This document shows positions 1,258-8,530 of a stretch of DNA of 64,000 nt, in pieces. Positions within the stretch are counted from its first letter, which is position 1. Every line of letters starts with the position of its first letter. This DNA is from Myxococcales bacterium. GTDB lineage: Bacteria > Myxococcota > UBA727 > GCA-2721815. Below the pieces are notes generated by a model. That model was given only the letters and a program-made list of their open reading frames with translations. It was not told where the DNA came from and did no database searches. The stretch lies in NCBI GenBank assembly GCA_002721815.1, contig PBLQ01000045.1, positions 1-64,000 on the forward strand, given 5' to 3'. Made by a program: the position numbers and the translations under genes.

Positions 1258-2676
1258 TTAACTTTCACCCAAACGGCGATAGAGCGTTCTTAAAGAAATG
1301 CCCAGCAATTGGGCGGTCAGATTTTTATCACCCTGGGTGTGCTTTAAGGTGGCTTCAATGGCTGCCCGCTCCAGTTGTTCCATGGTCATCCCCGGCTGAA
1401 AGACCAAACCCGAATCATGACTCTGGCTGGGTGTGGGTGTGGGGCCTATGGGCGCGTCGGCCATTACGGGCGGCAGATGAGAAAGCTCGATCGTTTCTGC
1501 GGGACACAAAACCACCGCACGTTCCACCGCATTTTCTAACTCTCGCACGTTACCAGGGTAAGACCACGACGACAAAACGTCTAAAGCATCATCAGAAAAT
1601 CCCCGAATTGATTTTTGGTGTTTGTCGTTAAATCGGCCCAACATCAAAGGCAATAACAATGGAATATCGTCGGCACGCTCTCTAAGTGGTGGCATTTGCA
1701 ACGTGATCACATCGAGGCGGTAATACAAATCTTCTCTAAAGCGACCCTCTTTAATTTGCTGCTTCAAATCGGTGTTGGTGGCCGCAATCACACGGACGTC
1801 GATGGGGATGGGGCCATCGCCACCGAGGCGTTCTACTTCATTTTCCTGTAAGACCCGCAGAAGCTTCACCTGCATGGCCAAAGGAATATCGCCCACTTCG
1901 TCCAATAAAAGGGTGCCGCCGTTGGCCCGTTCAAAGCGACCGATCTTTTGCATTTCGGCGCCAGTGAATGCGCCTTTTTCGTGTCCAAACAGCTCGGCCT
2001 CTAAAATGGTATCGGGCAGTGCGGCACAGTTAACGGCAACAAAGGGGCCACCAGAACGGTTTGAATGGCGGTGAATTTCCCGCGCACACAACTCTTTACC
2101 CGTTCCGGACTCTCCGAGAATAAGCACGGTTGCCGAAGAAGGTGCGACCTGCTCCAGCGTGGCCTTCAAATGCCGCATGCCATCCGAATTACCCACCAAA
2201 CCACCCTCGGGGGCCACCGCATGCAATCGCGCCCTGAGGTTTTGATTCTCCATTTGCAGCTGCCGGTGTCGTAAAGCGCGCTCAATGCAGGTGAGTAGCC
2301 CATTTCGCTTGATGGGTTTTGTCACAAAATCCCATGCCCCCTGCCGAATGGCCGTGAGGGCGTTGTCCACAGTTCCGTAAGCGGTCATGAGTACCACTAA
2401 GGCTTGGGGGCGAAGGGTTTGTGCCGCCTTGAGCACCGCAAAACCATCGGTACGGGGCATCACCAAATCAGTGAGAACCACCGCCACCGGATGCATTCGT
2501 AAGCAATCGATGGCCTGTTCCCCGTTTTCGGCGGTAATCACCCCATAGCCCGCCCGTTGGAAGATACGCTCCAGGCTCTCCAGATGGGCCTGTTCATCAT
2601 CCACCAAGAGTAAAAGCGGCCTTGGGGGGCCTTCTTCTGCTAAATTATCGCTTAATTCAGACAAATTACGCTCCAC
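1258..2676 (-). CDS. Sigma-54-dependent response regulator, NtrC/AtoC type
   Basis: A 472-residue protein with the full three-domain layout. The receiver domain spans about 20-135, with acidic D26/D27, phosphoacceptor D70 in VVLTDLVMP and K120 in FVTKP. The AAA+ domain has Walker A GESGTGKE at 188-195, the sigma-54-contacting GAFTGA loop at 235-240 and Walker B LLLDE at 256-260. A Fis-type helix-turn-helix ends the protein (LLGISLRTLYRRL). It should activate sigma-54 promoters when phosphorylated. No histidine kinase is adjacent, so its sensor is elsewhere or beyond the window. It is divergent from the diguanylate cyclase operon across 78 bp; I could not find a sigma-54 promoter there. Confidence 0.95.
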   Translation of the reverse strand: MERNLSELSDNLAEEGPPRPLLLLVDDEQAHLESLERIFQRAGYGVITAENGEQAIDCLRMHPVAVVLTDLVMPRTDGFAVLKAAQTLRPQALVVLMTAYGTVDNALTAIRQGAWDFVTKPIKRNGLLTCIERALRHRQLQMENQNLRARLHAVAPEGGLVGNSDGMRHLKATLEQVAPSSATVLILGESGTGKELCAREIHRHSNRSGGPFVAVNCAALPDTILEAELFGHEKGAFTGAEMQKIGRFERANGGTLLLDEVGDIPLAMQVKLLRVLQENEVERLGGDGPIPIDVRVIAATNTDLKQQIKEGRFREDLYYRLDVITLQMPPLRERADDIPLLLPLMLGRFNDKHQKSIRGFSDDALDVLSSWSYPGNVRELENAVERAVVLCPAETIELSHLPPVMADAPIGPTPTPSQSHDSGLVFQPGMTMEQLERAAIEATLKHTQGDKNLTAQLLGISLRTLYRRLGES

Positions 2677-2754: not shown

Positions 2755-4056
2755 ATGGGAATTAAACGGCGACTTTTGTTGATCGTAACGCTGATTATGG
2801 GTGCCAGTTTGGCCACCGGCCTCTTTGTGCTCAATCAAATTGAAATCCAAAACCAAAAACAAGAAAACACCCAACGCGTGGGCGCACTCTTGGCCTCCCT
2901 CTCTGCACCCGTCGCTTTCTCTTTGGTCCAAGGTCGTATCCCAGATTTGGATAACCTGATGGATCAATTGTTGGAACGCAAAGAAGACTTCAACCTAAGC
3001 CACGTAGCGCTCTTCGATCATCAAGGGCTATTGGTTGGGCAAACGGGCACACCGCCAAGCCCCCATGCCTTACCCAAGGCTTTTATTGAGAAAGCAGTGG
3101 CCGCCAATGGATCGGTGATTGCCCCCAATGCGCAAGGCTATCCTTTACGTATCTCCATGCCAGTAGAAACCGGGATTCGCTGGGCCACCTTGGTGGCAAC
3201 ACTCGACTGGAACAGCATTCAACAAAGCATTGCACAACGAGAAAAACGCATTTCATTAACCATCGTTGCCTTGGCACTTATTGCGCTGATCACCTTGCTC
3301 ATGTCCATTAACCGTTGGGTTCTGGCCCCCGTGGTTGCGGTCGCCAAAGTGGCCCAAAAATTCGCTGAAGGTGATTTGAGTGCGAGAATTCATTTGCCTG
3401 GAGCTGGGGAGATCACCCGTCTGGCGCGGGTTCTCAATATGGCAGGTGAAAGACTGTCCCGACAAAAAGAACTGTTAGAACAAGAGGTGGCCAAACGAAC
3501 CGACGATCTCAAGCGTGCCAATGAGCGCCTCGAAAAACTCGCCATCACCGACGGACTGACAGGGCTGTACAATCACCGCTATTTTCAAGAGATGTTAATT
3601 GCGGAGGTCCAACGTCAACGTCGGGGAGGGTCTTCTTTTTCATTAATCATGCTAGACGTTGATCACTTTAAAAAGTTTAACGATGAGCATGGGCACCCAG
3701 CGGGCGATGAAATTTTGCACACCATGGGAGAGATACTGTCAGAAAACGTCCGAGAAACGGACTTGGTGGCACGTTACGGTGGAGAAGAGTTTGTGATCTT
3801 GTTGCGCTTTGCAGATCATGACGATGCCGTCCAGGTGGCCGAAAAGTTACGACACAGCATCGAAGGCGCTTACTTTTCTGATGTTCACGGCACCCCTCGG
3901 TTCCGCTGTACCGCCTCTTTAGGGGTGGCCACTTGGCCCGAACACGCCAAACACGCACGCCCCCTCATTGAAATCGCTGATCAAGCCCTTTATCAAAGTA
4001 AAAGGCTCGGCCGCAATCGCATCACATCCGTCAATGATTTGGAACAGACGTCATGA
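2755..4056 (+). CDS. Membrane sensor diguanylate cyclase (HAMP-GGDEF)
   Basis: A 433-residue protein from the ATG at 2755; a TTG two codons upstream (2749) is an alternative. It has a membrane segment at about 6-26, a periplasmic sensor region of about 140 residues, a second membrane segment at about 166-186, HAMP at 187-240, a short coiled linker and a GGDEF domain from about 263. The active-site loop reads GGEEF (342-346), and an RETD inhibitory I-site sits five residues before it, so it should be an active, product-inhibited cyclase making c-di-GMP. The sensor region is not recognised; it resembles short CHASE-like inserts. The stop overlaps the next ATG by 4 nt, implying translational coupling to the PhnD-like lipoprotein, a plausible ligand-binding partner. 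Confidence 0.93.
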   Translation: MGIKRRLLLIVTLIMGASLATGLFVLNQIEIQNQKQENTQRVGALLASLSAPVAFSLVQGRIPDLDNLMDQLLERKEDFNLSHVALFDHQGLLVGQTGTPPSPHALPKAFIEKAVAANGSVIAPNAQGYPLRISMPVETGIRWATLVATLDWNSIQQSIAQREKRISLTIVALALIALITLLMSINRWVLAPVVAVAKVAQKFAEGDLSARIHLPGAGEITRLARVLNMAGERLSRQKELLEQEVAKRTDDLKRANERLEKLAITDGLTGLYNHRYFQEMLIAEVQRQRRGGSSFSLIMLDVDHFKKFNDEHGHPAGDEILHTMGEILSENVRETDLVARYGGEEFVILLRFADHDDAVQVAEKLRHSIEGAYFSDVHGTPRFRCTASLGVATWPEHAKHARPLIEIADQALYQSKRLGRNRITSVNDLEQTS

Positions 4057-5006
4057 AACACCTTCGCCTACAGATTTTATCATGGGTCTTTTTGCTCCTG
4101 GTCGGGTGCTTTCAGTCGGAGGTGAATTACGAGGGTCTGGCGAGTAATGGGGGTTTCGACCCCACGCGATACCAGCCCGGTAAACTGCCAGCCTATGAAA
4201 AAGGAGAGAAGCAACCCGAAAAGATTATTCTTGCCATGACGCCGTACTACTCCGCTAAAGTGCACCAAGCCATCATCGGCCCCATTGGATCCTATCTCGA
4301 AACCCAATTGGGCATCCCGGTGGAAATTAACAATGTGGTTACCTATCGAGAACTCATCGACGCAGTGGTACAAAACCAAGTGGACGTTGCTTTGATTTCT
4401 CCACTGGCATTTATTTTGGCCAAAGAAAAAAAACCTGAGCTCGAACTGCTGGCAGCAGTGGTTGCACAAGGCACCACCACATACTCGGGCTATTTGGTGG
4501 CCCCCATTGACAGTCCACTGACCAGCCTCCAAGAGGCCCAAGGAAAAAACCTGGCCTTAGTGGACCCCGTCTCCACATCTGGTTCTCTATTCCCCAAGTT
4601 GCTGTTTAAACAAAAAGGAATCGAGCCCAACACCTTTTTTGCGTCCGTTCAGTATGCCGGTACCCACGACAAAGCCCTCTCCCTTATCCGGGAAAAAAAG
4701 GTGGATCTTGCAGCAGTGTCCTCGGATACCCTGGTGGGTTACAACGCCTTAGGACCGGGTGGCTTTGCCCGCATTATCACCAGCACAGGCCGTGCGCCCT
4801 ACGACGCGGTGGTCGCGCAAGCCAGCCTCCCCAAACGCATCCGCGCCCAAATACGCAACGCGTTCCTACAGCTAAGTATTCACTCGCAGGAAGGCAGACG
4901 TATTTTGGCGAATAAAAACCTTTTGAGTGGTTTTATACCGGCTGACGATAATCATTATAAAACCGTTGAGGCCGCAGCCCGCGCAGGAGGCCTCCTAAAA
5001 CCATGA
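4053..5006 (+). CDS. PhnD-like periplasmic phosphate/phosphonate-type binding lipoprotein
   Basis: A 317-residue protein with a lipoprotein signal (lipobox LLVGC, Cys19) and a type 2 periplasmic binding fold of the PhnD family. Family-like segments include MTPYYSAKVHQAI, the stretch ending in DVALISPLAF, and the region around SGSLFPKLLFKQKGI. PhnD proteins bind phosphonate, phosphite or related oxyanions, usually for an ABC transporter. No permease or ATPase gene lies nearby, and the gene overlaps the cyclase by 4 nt (ATGA) and the polymerase gene by 4 nt. A sensory role feeding the cyclase is therefore more likely than transport, but this is inference from context. Confidence 0.85.
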   Translation: MKHLRLQILSWVFLLLVGCFQSEVNYEGLASNGGFDPTRYQPGKLPAYEKGEKQPEKIILAMTPYYSAKVHQAIIGPIGSYLETQLGIPVEINNVVTYRELIDAVVQNQVDVALISPLAFILAKEKKPELELLAAVVAQGTTTYSGYLVAPIDSPLTSLQEAQGKNLALVDPVSTSGSLFPKLLFKQKGIEPNTFFASVQYAGTHDKALSLIREKKVDLAAVSSDTLVGYNALGPGGFARIITSTGRAPYDAVVAQASLPKRIRAQIRNAFLQLSIHSQEGRRILANKNLLSGFIPADDNHYKTVEAAARAGGLLKP

Positions 5007-6604
5007 CGCTGCAGGACTTTCTTCAAGCACAGCAATTGATTTTTTGCCATCTGGTTGCAGGCGACGACAACCTTTTTGCAGCCCCTGAAGCCGTTTTAGT
5101 TTTTGGGGTCAAAGACGAAACCCACTGGGTCATCACCCATGAAGACACCGAGCAAATCGAATTGTTACGTTTGTTTGCAGCGGCTGAAGAGCGGGTCTTT
5201 ATTTTTGAACATGCACAAAGCCACATGCGACGGCTGTTGCATTGGAACATTCATGTATCGCGACCCATCTGCCAAAACGTCATTCACCGTTTATTGGAAC
5301 TTTCACCGCCCTCAGGCGAAGCCTTTCGCAGCACTCAAGAAGCACAGCGTCATATGGAGTCCTCCCGGCAAACATTCTCTCAGAGCCAAGAAGCGCTGCA
5401 CAGCTCTCCATACAAAAATGTGGCCCGACTCGAGTGCCTGGCGAGTTCCGCCTTCGCCCACATGGAATACCGAGGCCTCTATGTGGACCAACAAGTGTGG
5501 CGAAATATTTTAAAAGACGAAGAAGAAAAAAAAGCAGCAGCAGAATCTGAATTTTTTTCTGCGGCCAAGCCCCATGTGAAGATTGACCTTTTTGGGCGAC
5601 CGGACATTAGTCTGGAGCAAGACGAAGCCCTGCGTGAACTATTTGAAAAGCTCACCGGAGAATCGTTAAACCGTTTAGATAAAAAAACCCTGCGCGGATT
5701 AGAACACCCAGCCGCCAAAGCGCTCATCAAATACCGCGAATCAGCGAAATTAGTGTCCACCTATGGTGAAGGCTTTTTACAAAATATCCATGCGAGCACC
5801 GGCCGAATCCACGCGCATTTTAACCCCTTGGGAACCTCCACCGGTCGTGTTTCTTGCCATTCGCCAAACATCCAAAACCTGCCCACCGACGAACGGTTTC
5901 ATCAGGCGATCTGTGCGCCACCCAATAAATGCTTGGTTACTGCAGACTATGCCACCTGCGAGCTCCGGGTCTTGGCCGCCCTCTCGGGGGATAAAAGTTT
6001 TCTGGGCGCCTTTGAGAAAGACGAAGACCTCCACAGCCGCGTGGCCAGCGAAATGTTTCAAACGTCGGTGAGTAAGCATGAAAACGCACACCTGCGTCAA
6101 CGCGCCAAAGCCATTAACTTTGGGTTGATTTACGGTATGGGGCACCGCGCGTTGGCCAGGCAAGTGGGCGTGGGTGAAGACGAAGCTAAGATTTTACTCA
6201 AACAATATTTTGACGCCTACCCTGGCATTGCATCCTTTTTAGAACACAGTGTCAGCAAAGCCAAATCCAATGGTTTTGCTGCAACGGTTTTAAACCGCAG
6301 ACTGTATTTAGAACCATCCGACAATCAATTGAGCCGCATCGCAAAAAACATGCCCATTCAAGGCACCAGCGCGGAAATCGCCAAACTCGCCATGGCACGT
6401 CTGAACGAAAGACTGTGGCGTGACCACCCTGACGCTTTCTTGGTCAATATGATTCATGATGAACTGGTCGTGGAATGTCCCAAAGAAGACGGTGAGACCA
6501 TCGGCCGAATTGTGGTGGAAGAAATGGAGAAAGCACAGCGCACCTTACTGCCCAGCGTTAAACCCAAAGCGGATGTGCATGTGGGACACACCTGGGGTCA
6601 TTAA
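5003..6604 (+). CDS. Short family A DNA polymerase, no 5' nuclease and no intact proofreading site
   Basis: At 533 residues this is far shorter than ordinary PolA (about 900). The polymerase core is complete: the TGRVSCHSPNIQNLP region (280-294), motif A DYATCELR (315-322, usually DYSQIELR), motif B RAKAINFGLIYG (367-378) and motif C MIHDEL (483-488, H485/D486). No 5'-3' nuclease domain precedes it. The first 100 residues look like a decayed 3'-5' exonuclease fold without its metal-binding acidic residues. It could be a repair or gap-filling polymerase or a phage-like relict. It starts inside the end of the PhnD-like gene (ATGA overlap), so it belongs to that operon. Its function there is unknown. 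Confidence 0.9.
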   Translation: MTLQDFLQAQQLIFCHLVAGDDNLFAAPEAVLVFGVKDETHWVITHEDTEQIELLRLFAAAEERVFIFEHAQSHMRRLLHWNIHVSRPICQNVIHRLLELSPPSGEAFRSTQEAQRHMESSRQTFSQSQEALHSSPYKNVARLECLASSAFAHMEYRGLYVDQQVWRNILKDEEEKKAAAESEFFSAAKPHVKIDLFGRPDISLEQDEALRELFEKLTGESLNRLDKKTLRGLEHPAAKALIKYRESAKLVSTYGEGFLQNIHASTGRIHAHFNPLGTSTGRVSCHSPNIQNLPTDERFHQAICAPPNKCLVTADYATCELRVLAALSGDKSFLGAFEKDEDLHSRVASEMFQTSVSKHENAHLRQRAKAINFGLIYGMGHRALARQVGVGEDEAKILLKQYFDAYPGIASFLEHSVSKAKSNGFAATVLNRRLYLEPSDNQLSRIAKNMPIQGTSAEIAKLAMARLNERLWRDHPDAFLVNMIHDELVVECPKEDGETIGRIVVEEMEKAQRTLLPSVKPKADVHVGHTWGH

Positions 6605-6622: not shown

Positions 6623-7321
6623 TTAGATCACCAAAAACCTTTTCACACGTGAAGCGTAATCGTCGTAGCCTGGGAGCTGGTCCAAAAGCATTTTCTCTTC
6701 CACATGGATGCGAACCATGATGGCAACACCGAATAAAAGCGCCACAGCCATCAAGCCCACCAACGTATTGAGCATGAACACCGCGCCCAGTGTGATGAAA
6801 TATTCTCCCAAATAGCCGGGATGTCGCATGTGTCTGTACACCTCTTTGTCAACGCACTGCTGTTGTGCAGTCACGTACACCACGTCATAGTAATGAGGCG
6901 CCAAAGTCTTTTGAGCCCGATGCAGCAAAGACACACCGAGAACAATGAGGGGCAAACCACCCATGAGAAGCAGCGCCTGGTTGTGAGCCCATGGCATCCA
7001 ACCACGTCCCGCCGATAAAAAGGCCAAGCCAACACCAACAAGGAAAGACAAACGCAGCATCACCATGGTTTTTTTTTCAATGGTAGGGGCAACGGTAAAG
7101 GCACTCTTTAATCGCGCATAAGCAAAAGACGCCAATAAGACGGTCATTGCTACGAACCACAGTGGCTGTGGTTGCCAATCTTCTAGTGCTCCAGCTGCCG
7201 TTGTCCAAACCAGAGCGTAAACACCTAAACGAAATAAAATATAGGCCAGACGAACGCGCCTGAGCACCCGCATCCCTTCGGGGGTTGGGCCCGTAGCGGA
7301 AGTCTGAGGCGCCATGGTCAT
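6623..7321 (-). CDS. Isoprenylcysteine carboxyl methyltransferase-like membrane methyltransferase
   Basis: A 232-residue integral membrane protein with about five hydrophobic segments. The C-terminal signature of the ICMT/PEMT superfamily is clear: YRHMRHPGYLGEYF followed by a helix and then VRIHVEEKMLLDQLPGYDDY. Members methylate isoprenylcysteine, phospholipids or other hydrophobic acceptors with S-adenosylmethionine. Bacterial substrates are mostly unknown, so I give no substrate. It follows the metallophosphoesterase gene by 3 bp and is probably cotranscribed with it. Confidence 0.8.
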   Translation of the reverse strand: MTMAPQTSATGPTPEGMRVLRRVRLAYILFRLGVYALVWTTAAGALEDWQPQPLWFVAMTVLLASFAYARLKSAFTVAPTIEKKTMVMLRLSFLVGVGLAFLSAGRGWMPWAHNQALLLMGGLPLIVLGVSLLHRAQKTLAPHYYDVVYVTAQQQCVDKEVYRHMRHPGYLGEYFITLGAVFMLNTLVGLMAVALLFGVAIMVRIHVEEKMLLDQLPGYDDYASRVKRFLVI

Positions 7322-7324
7322 GGT

Positions 7325-8530
7325 CTACCGATTGACCACGCGGGTATGCCTCACTTGCCAAGTGGCAGGGCCGGAGGCATTTTCAGTGACGATAATGAAC
7401 GTCATCTTCATTTGCGAAGGCGTCACGTCGAACAAAACAAAACCAAGTTCTGCCACGTAAAAAGGCGCATCGTTTCGAGCTTCTACTTCAGAGGCTTTTG
7501 CGCCTGCCCCAGACACAATCCATTGGGTGCCACCCACTTCTCCCATGTCCTGTACACTGTGATCGTGGCCCGCCAAATAAAGATCGAAATGGCCTTGAAT
7601 GTAATTCTCAAAAAAGCTTTTTAACTCGGTGCCAGAGCCTGGGAGAGACCATTCAAACCCCAGCTCATACGCACCGGCATTGCCATGACGCCCGTTGGAC
7701 AAATAAGGGTGGTGACCGAATGCGATGCGCCAATCTGCAGTGCTGGACTGCGCCCACAAGGGTAATTGGGTTTCTTGTTTTTCATTTTCGTCTTCAAAGC
7801 TCCAAACGTTGGTGAGATAAGAACATGATAGGTTTTCCGCAAAAGAAAAATCAGCCCAAAACATGGCGGTGGTATTGAGAGATACAAGCTCCACATTTTC
7901 TAAAAAGACCTGGTAAAAGGTACCCGGCATTTTAAACTTGGTTTGGACGCCGGCATAGGCCACCTGCGCTTCACCTCTACAGGGCTCAAGGCCCGCACCG
8001 CCGCTGGTCAAACTCAAAGGGTCGGAGCCGTAATCATGATTTCCCAACGTGGCGTAAAACGGGAAGTCTAATTCAGCGTAAGGATCTTCAAAAACGGCTG
8101 ACCATCTTGCATCTTCGGCATCTTCAACCCCTTCGTCATAAATATTATCACCTAACATCACCGCAAAATCACAACCTCCCTCTTGCGTGCACACCTGTTT
8201 CATGGCCGAAGCCACCGCATATTGTCCTGCGTGAGGTTGTCCCACTTCTGATTCGCCCACATCGCCCAACGCAATGAATTTGAGCCGGTAGGCTGGCGCA
8301 CCAGGTCCAGCATCCACGGGTTGGCCAGGGCCGGCATCAGGGTTGGCCACTGCGCCGGCATCCACGGCAGGGCCCTGAGCGTTTTGATTTCCCGCATCGG
8401 GCCCTTTGGTGCCAAATTGGATGGGCTCACCAGGCGGTGTTGAGGGTTCGATGGGCTCCACCTGCTCATCAGGGCACCCCAATAAAAGGAAGAGTCCGAG
8501 AATCGTCAACCATTTAGCGCCCGCAAACAT
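7325..8530 (-). CDS. Calcineurin-like metallophosphoesterase lipoprotein (purple acid phosphatase-like)
   Basis: A 401-residue protein with a lipoprotein signal (LLLGC, Cys19) and a low-complexity linker with repeated DAG triplets to about residue 80. The catalytic domain has the ordered metal-ligand motifs ALGDVGE, MLGDNIYDEG, LGNHDYG, FGHHPYLS and AGHDHS. This is the arrangement of the metallophosphoesterase superfamily, nearest to the acid phosphatase 5/tartrate-resistant type. It should hydrolyse phosphate esters at the outer membrane or cell surface. The linker type matches other lipoproteins in the window, including the FG-GAP protein. Confidence 0.9.
   Translation of the reverse strand: MFAGAKWLTILGLFLLLGCPDEQVEPIEPSTPPGEPIQFGTKGPDAGNQNAQGPAVDAGAVANPDAGPGQPVDAGPGAPAYRLKFIALGDVGESEVGQPHAGQYAVASAMKQVCTQEGGCDFAVMLGDNIYDEGVEDAEDARWSAVFEDPYAELDFPFYATLGNHDYGSDPLSLTSGGAGLEPCRGEAQVAYAGVQTKFKMPGTFYQVFLENVELVSLNTTAMFWADFSFAENLSCSYLTNVWSFEDENEKQETQLPLWAQSSTADWRIAFGHHPYLSNGRHGNAGAYELGFEWSLPGSGTELKSFFENYIQGHFDLYLAGHDHSVQDMGEVGGTQWIVSGAGAKASEVEARNDAPFYVAELGFVLFDVTPSQMKMTFIIVTENASGPATWQVRHTRVVNR

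Follow-up and report, generated by a model that had tools for sequence, protein, structure and literature searches.

Why would a diguanylate cyclase, a phosphonate-binding-type lipoprotein and a DNA polymerase be encoded by three overlapping genes? The question is raised by a locus in a 64,000-nt stretch of a Myxococcales bacterium (assembly GCA_002721815.1, contig PBLQ01000045.1, positions 1 to 64,000 of the forward strand; hereafter the window), which starts at base 1 of the contig (C45 of genome G000 in our sample). On the plus strand, a membrane diguanylate cyclase (DGC; 2755–4056, ATG at 2755, TGA ending at 4056, 433 aa) is followed by a PhnD-like lipoprotein (4053–5006, ATG at 4053, TGA ending at 5006, 317 aa) and an accessory family A DNA polymerase (POL; 5003–6604, ATG at 5003, TAA ending at 6604, 533 aa). 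An earlier reading of the letters by themselves (the sequence-only reading) had described three genes joined by 4-nt ATGA overlaps, and the sequence bears out the coordinates and both plus-strand junctions, of the DGC stop with the PhnD start (4053–4056) and of the PhnD stop with the POL start (5003–5006). From this arrangement, the three genes are probably co-transcribed; in a sigma-70 promoter scan the number of sites was not above that in shuffled sequences. We consider it likely that the cyclase and the PhnD/PtxB-family lipoprotein form a two-gene receptor, and that the polymerase, an accessory enzyme, has joined the operon in certain lineages without being part of this receptor.

The pairing of the two genes extends well beyond the window. 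Across one set of 195 Myxococcota genomes, in part fragmented metagenome-assembled genomes (MAGs), three protein searches gave 35 full-length or near full-length DGC homologs, and in 30 of them, from several families, a PhnD-like gene lies directly 3' on the same strand, with no more than 222 nt between the matched segments. Among the 18 called junctions (gene starts beyond the window being assigned by a simple caller based on codon usage), eight overlap by exactly 4 nt and another four by 1–8 nt. SBP-coupled receptors are marked by a substrate-binding protein (SBP) gene kept beside a membrane signalling gene across lineages, as in this pair, and by an SBP that binds its ligand and contacts the periplasmic domain of the receptor, as the lipoprotein would do. 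A strong PhnE-like permease was found in only two of the 30 pair-bearing genomes (G043 and G149), on other contigs, and no PhnE match was obtained in the window's own genome. A two-part receptor is the most likely function of the pair because of this frequent pairing and the scarcity of PhnE, which upholds the sequence-only proposal of a two-part sensor made of a cyclase and an orphan PhnD-like lipoprotein. The operon holds no permease or ATPase genes and neither PhnC nor PhnE is adjacent, PhnC not having been searched for separately. The open-access literature searched, from which most subscription journals are missing, gave no account of a PhnD-family protein paired with a GGDEF cyclase.

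The PhnD-like protein carries a lipobox (LVGC) in its signal peptide and matches PF12974 (1.3e-55, 188.9 bits against a cut-off of 27). It passes TIGR01098 (154.8, cut-off 112.05) and fails the PhnD equivalog TIGR03431 (149.7, cut-off 261.1); by these models it is assigned to the phosphate/phosphite/phosphonate SBP superfamily (TIGR01098/PF12974). Its nearest solved relatives include PhnD1/PtxB and HtxB as well as ArrX and AioX, and the presence of these two PhnD-family sensor subunits (PMC5908839) supports a receptor function. One side of the binding pocket is common to AioX and Escherichia coli PhnD (Tyr88, Tyr131, Ser161, Ser163 and His192 in AioX numbering; PMC5908839), and in alignments read by eye Tyr98, Tyr147, both STS-loop serines and His205 of the window protein align with these shared residues. 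Read in the same way, Asp251 sits at the aspartate of the HtxB motif PNDA, and the position of AioX Cys106 is a serine in the segment VALISPLAF. Arsenite is an unlikely ligand because of this serine, the arsenite sensors of AioX/ArxX type having a cysteine in the pocket. At G000:C22 (L067:6108-9901), a second PhnD-like gene of the genome lies 62 nt 3' of a gene for a 939-aa Ser/Thr kinase on the same strand, and G122 carries a fusion (L093:8148-10001) whose PhnD domain lies on the C-terminal side of a kinase domain. From the cyclase pair, the kinase neighbour and this fusion, PhnD-family proteins appear to be inputs for several signalling outputs in Myxococcota.

The cyclase consists of a transmembrane segment, a periplasmic sCache-like domain (about residues 40–160), a second transmembrane segment, a HAMP domain (185–235; Pfam 1e-9) and a GGDEF domain (263–422; PF00990, 1.2e-47, 162 bits). 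Its GGEEF at residues 342–346 is invariant across 15 homologs and agrees with the GG[DE]EF active site of GGDEF diguanylate cyclases, the class to which these residues would assign it, and the I-site RETD also reads as intact. The sCache_3_2 domain is recognised in 12 of the 15 homologs and falls below threshold in the window protein itself. The NCBIfam YfiN model covers the HAMP-GGDEF part and leaves the sensor domain outside the match. A 963-aa form of the cyclase in G008 (L081:5939-8827) has about 500 additional N-terminal residues without a Pfam match.

By analogy with AioX-AioS (PMC5908839) and NspS-MbaA (PMC8079147, PMC8967002), the lipoprotein would bind a small periplasmic oxyanion, probably phosphate-, phosphite- or phosphonate-like. 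Once ligand-bound it would dock on the sCache domain that the co-translated cyclase exposes to the periplasm, and the signal would pass through HAMP to alter cyclic di-GMP (c-di-GMP) synthesis by the GGDEF domain. We infer the identity of the ligand, the contact between the two proteins and the direction of the effect on the cyclase, and the pair most likely follows the principle of AioX/AioS or NspS/MbaA with its parts combined differently. In AioX-AioS-AioR and ArrX-ArrS-ArrR, a PhnD/PtxB-family periplasmic protein is likewise the first, non-transport component of a receptor and the same side of the oxyanion pocket is kept, but the output is a histidine kinase with a response regulator, whereas in the window it is a diguanylate cyclase. 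NspS-MbaA, which senses polyamines in Vibrio cholerae, resembles the pair in that an ABC-type SBP gates, independently of transport, a membrane c-di-GMP enzyme encoded next to it. However, NspS is a polyamine-type (PotD family) protein and MbaA combines GGDEF with EAL, in contrast to the PhnD-family lipoprotein and the GGDEF-only cyclase of the window. In YfiR-YfiN/TpbB, too, a periplasmic protein controls an inner-membrane HAMP-GGDEF cyclase, although YfiR is not an SBP.

Some observations weigh against a two-gene receptor. Five of the 35 DGC homologs have no adjacent PhnD-like gene (G002, G051, G049, G008 and G087), the exceptions including a contig end (G051), a polymerase directly after the cyclase (G002) and the 963-aa form (G008). 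The sCache domain may bind its ligand unaided, and the absence of PhnE could reflect divergent permeases below detection as well as incomplete MAGs. The AlphaFold2 model of the cyclase, built from two sequences, is poor (predicted local distance difference test score, pLDDT, 63.5), and its whole-chain structure match recovers the GGDEF domain only. That the PhnD-like protein is instead an ordinary phosphonate or phosphite uptake protein, standing after the cyclase by accident, is favoured only by its family membership (PF12974 and TIGR01098). Its position is nevertheless kept in 30 of the 35 homologs, the score falls short of the PhnD equivalog, no PhnE was detected in the genome and no transport gene accompanies it in the operon, and we regard simple uptake as very unlikely.

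What, then, is the polymerase doing in this operon? POL matches PF00476 (1.2e-92, 311.3 bits) and retains polymerase motifs A (DYATCELR), B (RAKAINFGLIYG) and C (HDELV). Pfam gives no match to a 5'-3' flap endonuclease (FEN) domain, and the protein has 533 aa compared with approximately 900 aa for canonical Pol I. The sequence-only reading was right about a polymerase without exonuclease sites: the ExoI, ExoII and ExoIII motifs are absent from POL, and an exonuclease-like 3'-5' fold is kept as a vestige at the N-terminus (about residues 1–110, with low model confidence). The model as a whole has a pLDDT of 84.4, with the large fragment of Bst Pol I as best PDB match. The best NCBIfam match is PRK14975, a bifunctional 3'-5' exonuclease/DNA polymerase type from which POL differs by a score below the cut-off (319 against 640) and by its lost exonuclease sites. 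Identity with canonical Pol I (PolA1) was ruled out by the length, the missing FEN domain and a separate canonical PolA (943-aa frame) elsewhere in the genome (G000:C61).

POL orthologs were found in 36 of the 195 genomes at a threshold of E ≤ 1e-62, at which a few of the matches are full-length Pol I; family f13 has none, and most of the 36 genomes carry the polymerase without the pair. Among the short forms, a POL tree holding no actinobacterial PolA2 reference sequence has an exonuclease-positive clade (families f7, f8, f17, f19 and f25), whose homologs keep all exonuclease motifs, and an exonuclease-dead clade comprising the window's order, f6, f14 and f20-23 (support 95/88). PolA2/APEX, reported only in Actinobacteria and with a QxxLF clamp motif in its vestigial domain (PMC12926913), is similarly a family A polymerase that lacks FEN, keeps an inactive vestige of the 3'-5' exonuclease domain and serves beside a full Pol I as an accessory enzyme. 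It differs in the clamp-binding motif, which is not conserved in the exonuclease-less POL clade, where POL itself has one QQLIF, at residue 10, in a part predicted to form a strand. POL may be of low fidelity because its exonuclease is lost, as has been argued for PolA2/APEX (PMC12926913). In this lineage it would be translated from the same message as the pair, and its own job would most likely be gap filling or lesion-tolerant repair synthesis. Although presumably co-expressed, the polymerase is probably independent of the sensor pair, given that the pair is followed in f13 by an RsmJ-like methyltransferase gene without a polymerase and that POL mostly occurs without the pair.

Several f13 loci (L077-L080, L083, L086 and L100) have a gene for a GAF-GGDEF protein of 650–722 aa 5' of the pair, so that two cyclases and a PhnD-like protein make up a single cluster. 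In five genomes of f20-23 (L069-L073), roughly 3–11 kb separate the cyclase and/or PhnD gene from the canonical Pol I gene, probably through synteny common to these related families. Family f5, which belongs to the window's order, has very small genomes (G005, G007, G009 and G011-G015; 0.3–1.8 Mb), several of which keep a shortened accessory polymerase (345–376 aa as called), one with an in-frame TGA.

The three-gene order is not confined to one species, so that the refuting outcome named by the sequence-only reading, a trio in a single species, did not arise. DGC, PhnD-like gene and POL follow each other in G000, G006, G001 and G032, and G002 has DGC and POL only; the junctions overlap in all these recurrences, G002 included, except that of PhnD and POL in G001 (37-nt gap). 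The return of the order in G006, G001 and G032 is more than chance would give and supports one coupled operon, as had been proposed. A single contig scan with the polymerase as query, aimed beyond the phylum, yielded canonical Pol I for the most part, and the only other trio in it was that of G001 (L108). POL adjoins a cyclase in five of the 36 POL genomes, in four families of one order and once outside it (G032). With the odds that two given genes stand side by side by chance estimated at the order of 1 in 1000 per genome, the linkage is real, but a single order, with shared descent, supplies four of the five cases. G032 falls in the exonuclease-positive clade of the POL tree and with f8/f20-23 in the DGC tree, both on weak forks (81/69 and 80/76), and with these placements a recent transfer of the trio from the window's order was rejected. 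Its trio, outside the order and with genes that do not group with it, is either left over from an ancient arrangement or was put together independently.

A neighbour that the sequence-only reading did not mention is more widely kept beside the exonuclease-less POL clade. A sigma-54-dependent (NtrC-type) response regulator (1258–2676, minus strand; Pfam Response_reg, Sigma54_activat and HTH_8) lies divergently, 78 nt from the operon. About a dozen genomes have homologs of 40–60% identity that are divergent to one of the two enzyme genes, to POL in f6, f14 and f20-23 and to DGC in G000, G006 and G002 (f1, f3 and f4) and, in a shorter form, in G001 (f2), all of them in the exonuclease-less clade. 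POL might functionally belong to this regulator as a regulated repair polymerase, with the pair inserted between them or lost elsewhere. However, the divergent linkage may be mere neighbourhood, and a search for a sigma-54 promoter between regulator and operon gave one weak GG-N10-GC match that faces the regulator, with none conserved in the other divergent regions and the pattern rarer in the window than in shuffles. Hence, we hold this possibility to be doubtful; it is compatible with a two-gene receptor and does not exclude it. Less probable is that the whole trio forms one circuit, a starvation or stress module in which oxyanion sensing (for example of phosphate shortage) sets c-di-GMP together with a co-expressed low-fidelity repair polymerase. 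Overlapping trios in f1, f2 and f4 and, without recent transfer as far as weak forks can tell, in G032 agree with such a circuit, as does the POL still joined to DGC in G002 despite the missing PhnD-like gene. Against it stand the restriction of cyclase adjacency to five POL genomes, mostly by shared descent, the absence of POL from most of the pairs, and f5, which keeps POL while DGC and PhnD were undetected there. The specific wiring of an exonuclease-dead POL to an oxyanion-sensing cyclase, by which phosphorus status (or a similar oxyanion) would control both c-di-GMP and low-fidelity repair, seems to us slightly less probable again; if true, it would amount to nutrient-dependent mutagenesis or repair. 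The novel defence module that the sequence-only reading had also considered, or a phage-derived one, is extremely unlikely. The PADLOC model RTasPolA does match POL (2e-35), but this is the similarity common to PolA proteins, the operon having no gene for a reverse transcriptase, and PADLOC gives otherwise generic sigma-54 similarity and no match for the PhnD-like protein or DGC. The best phage polymerases among the matches listed are less than 40% identical over about half of the protein, and the POL tree follows the family groupings; PADLOC, PHROGs and phage tblastn searches returned generic polymerase similarity only, and a defence or phage origin was rejected.

If the two-gene receptor is right, c-di-GMP signalling in Myxococcota takes input from a non-transport oxyanion receptor of the PhnD family, a kind of protein that annotation pipelines label as a phosphonate transport component. 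It would also offer, for a family of cyclases spread over many genomes, a class of ligands to test. POL would represent a second lineage of FEN-less, exonuclease-dead PolA, this one outside Actinobacteria, to which a published survey confines such polymerases (PMC12926913).

Downstream, the operon is bounded by a convergent gene (6623–7321, minus strand). Approximately 700 nt past the operon, a further minus-strand gene (7325–8530), whose adjacency to the trio is not kept in other genomes, encodes a lipoprotein with a calcineurin-like phosphoesterase domain, and a phosphorus-scavenging role of this protein would fit a phosphorus sensor.

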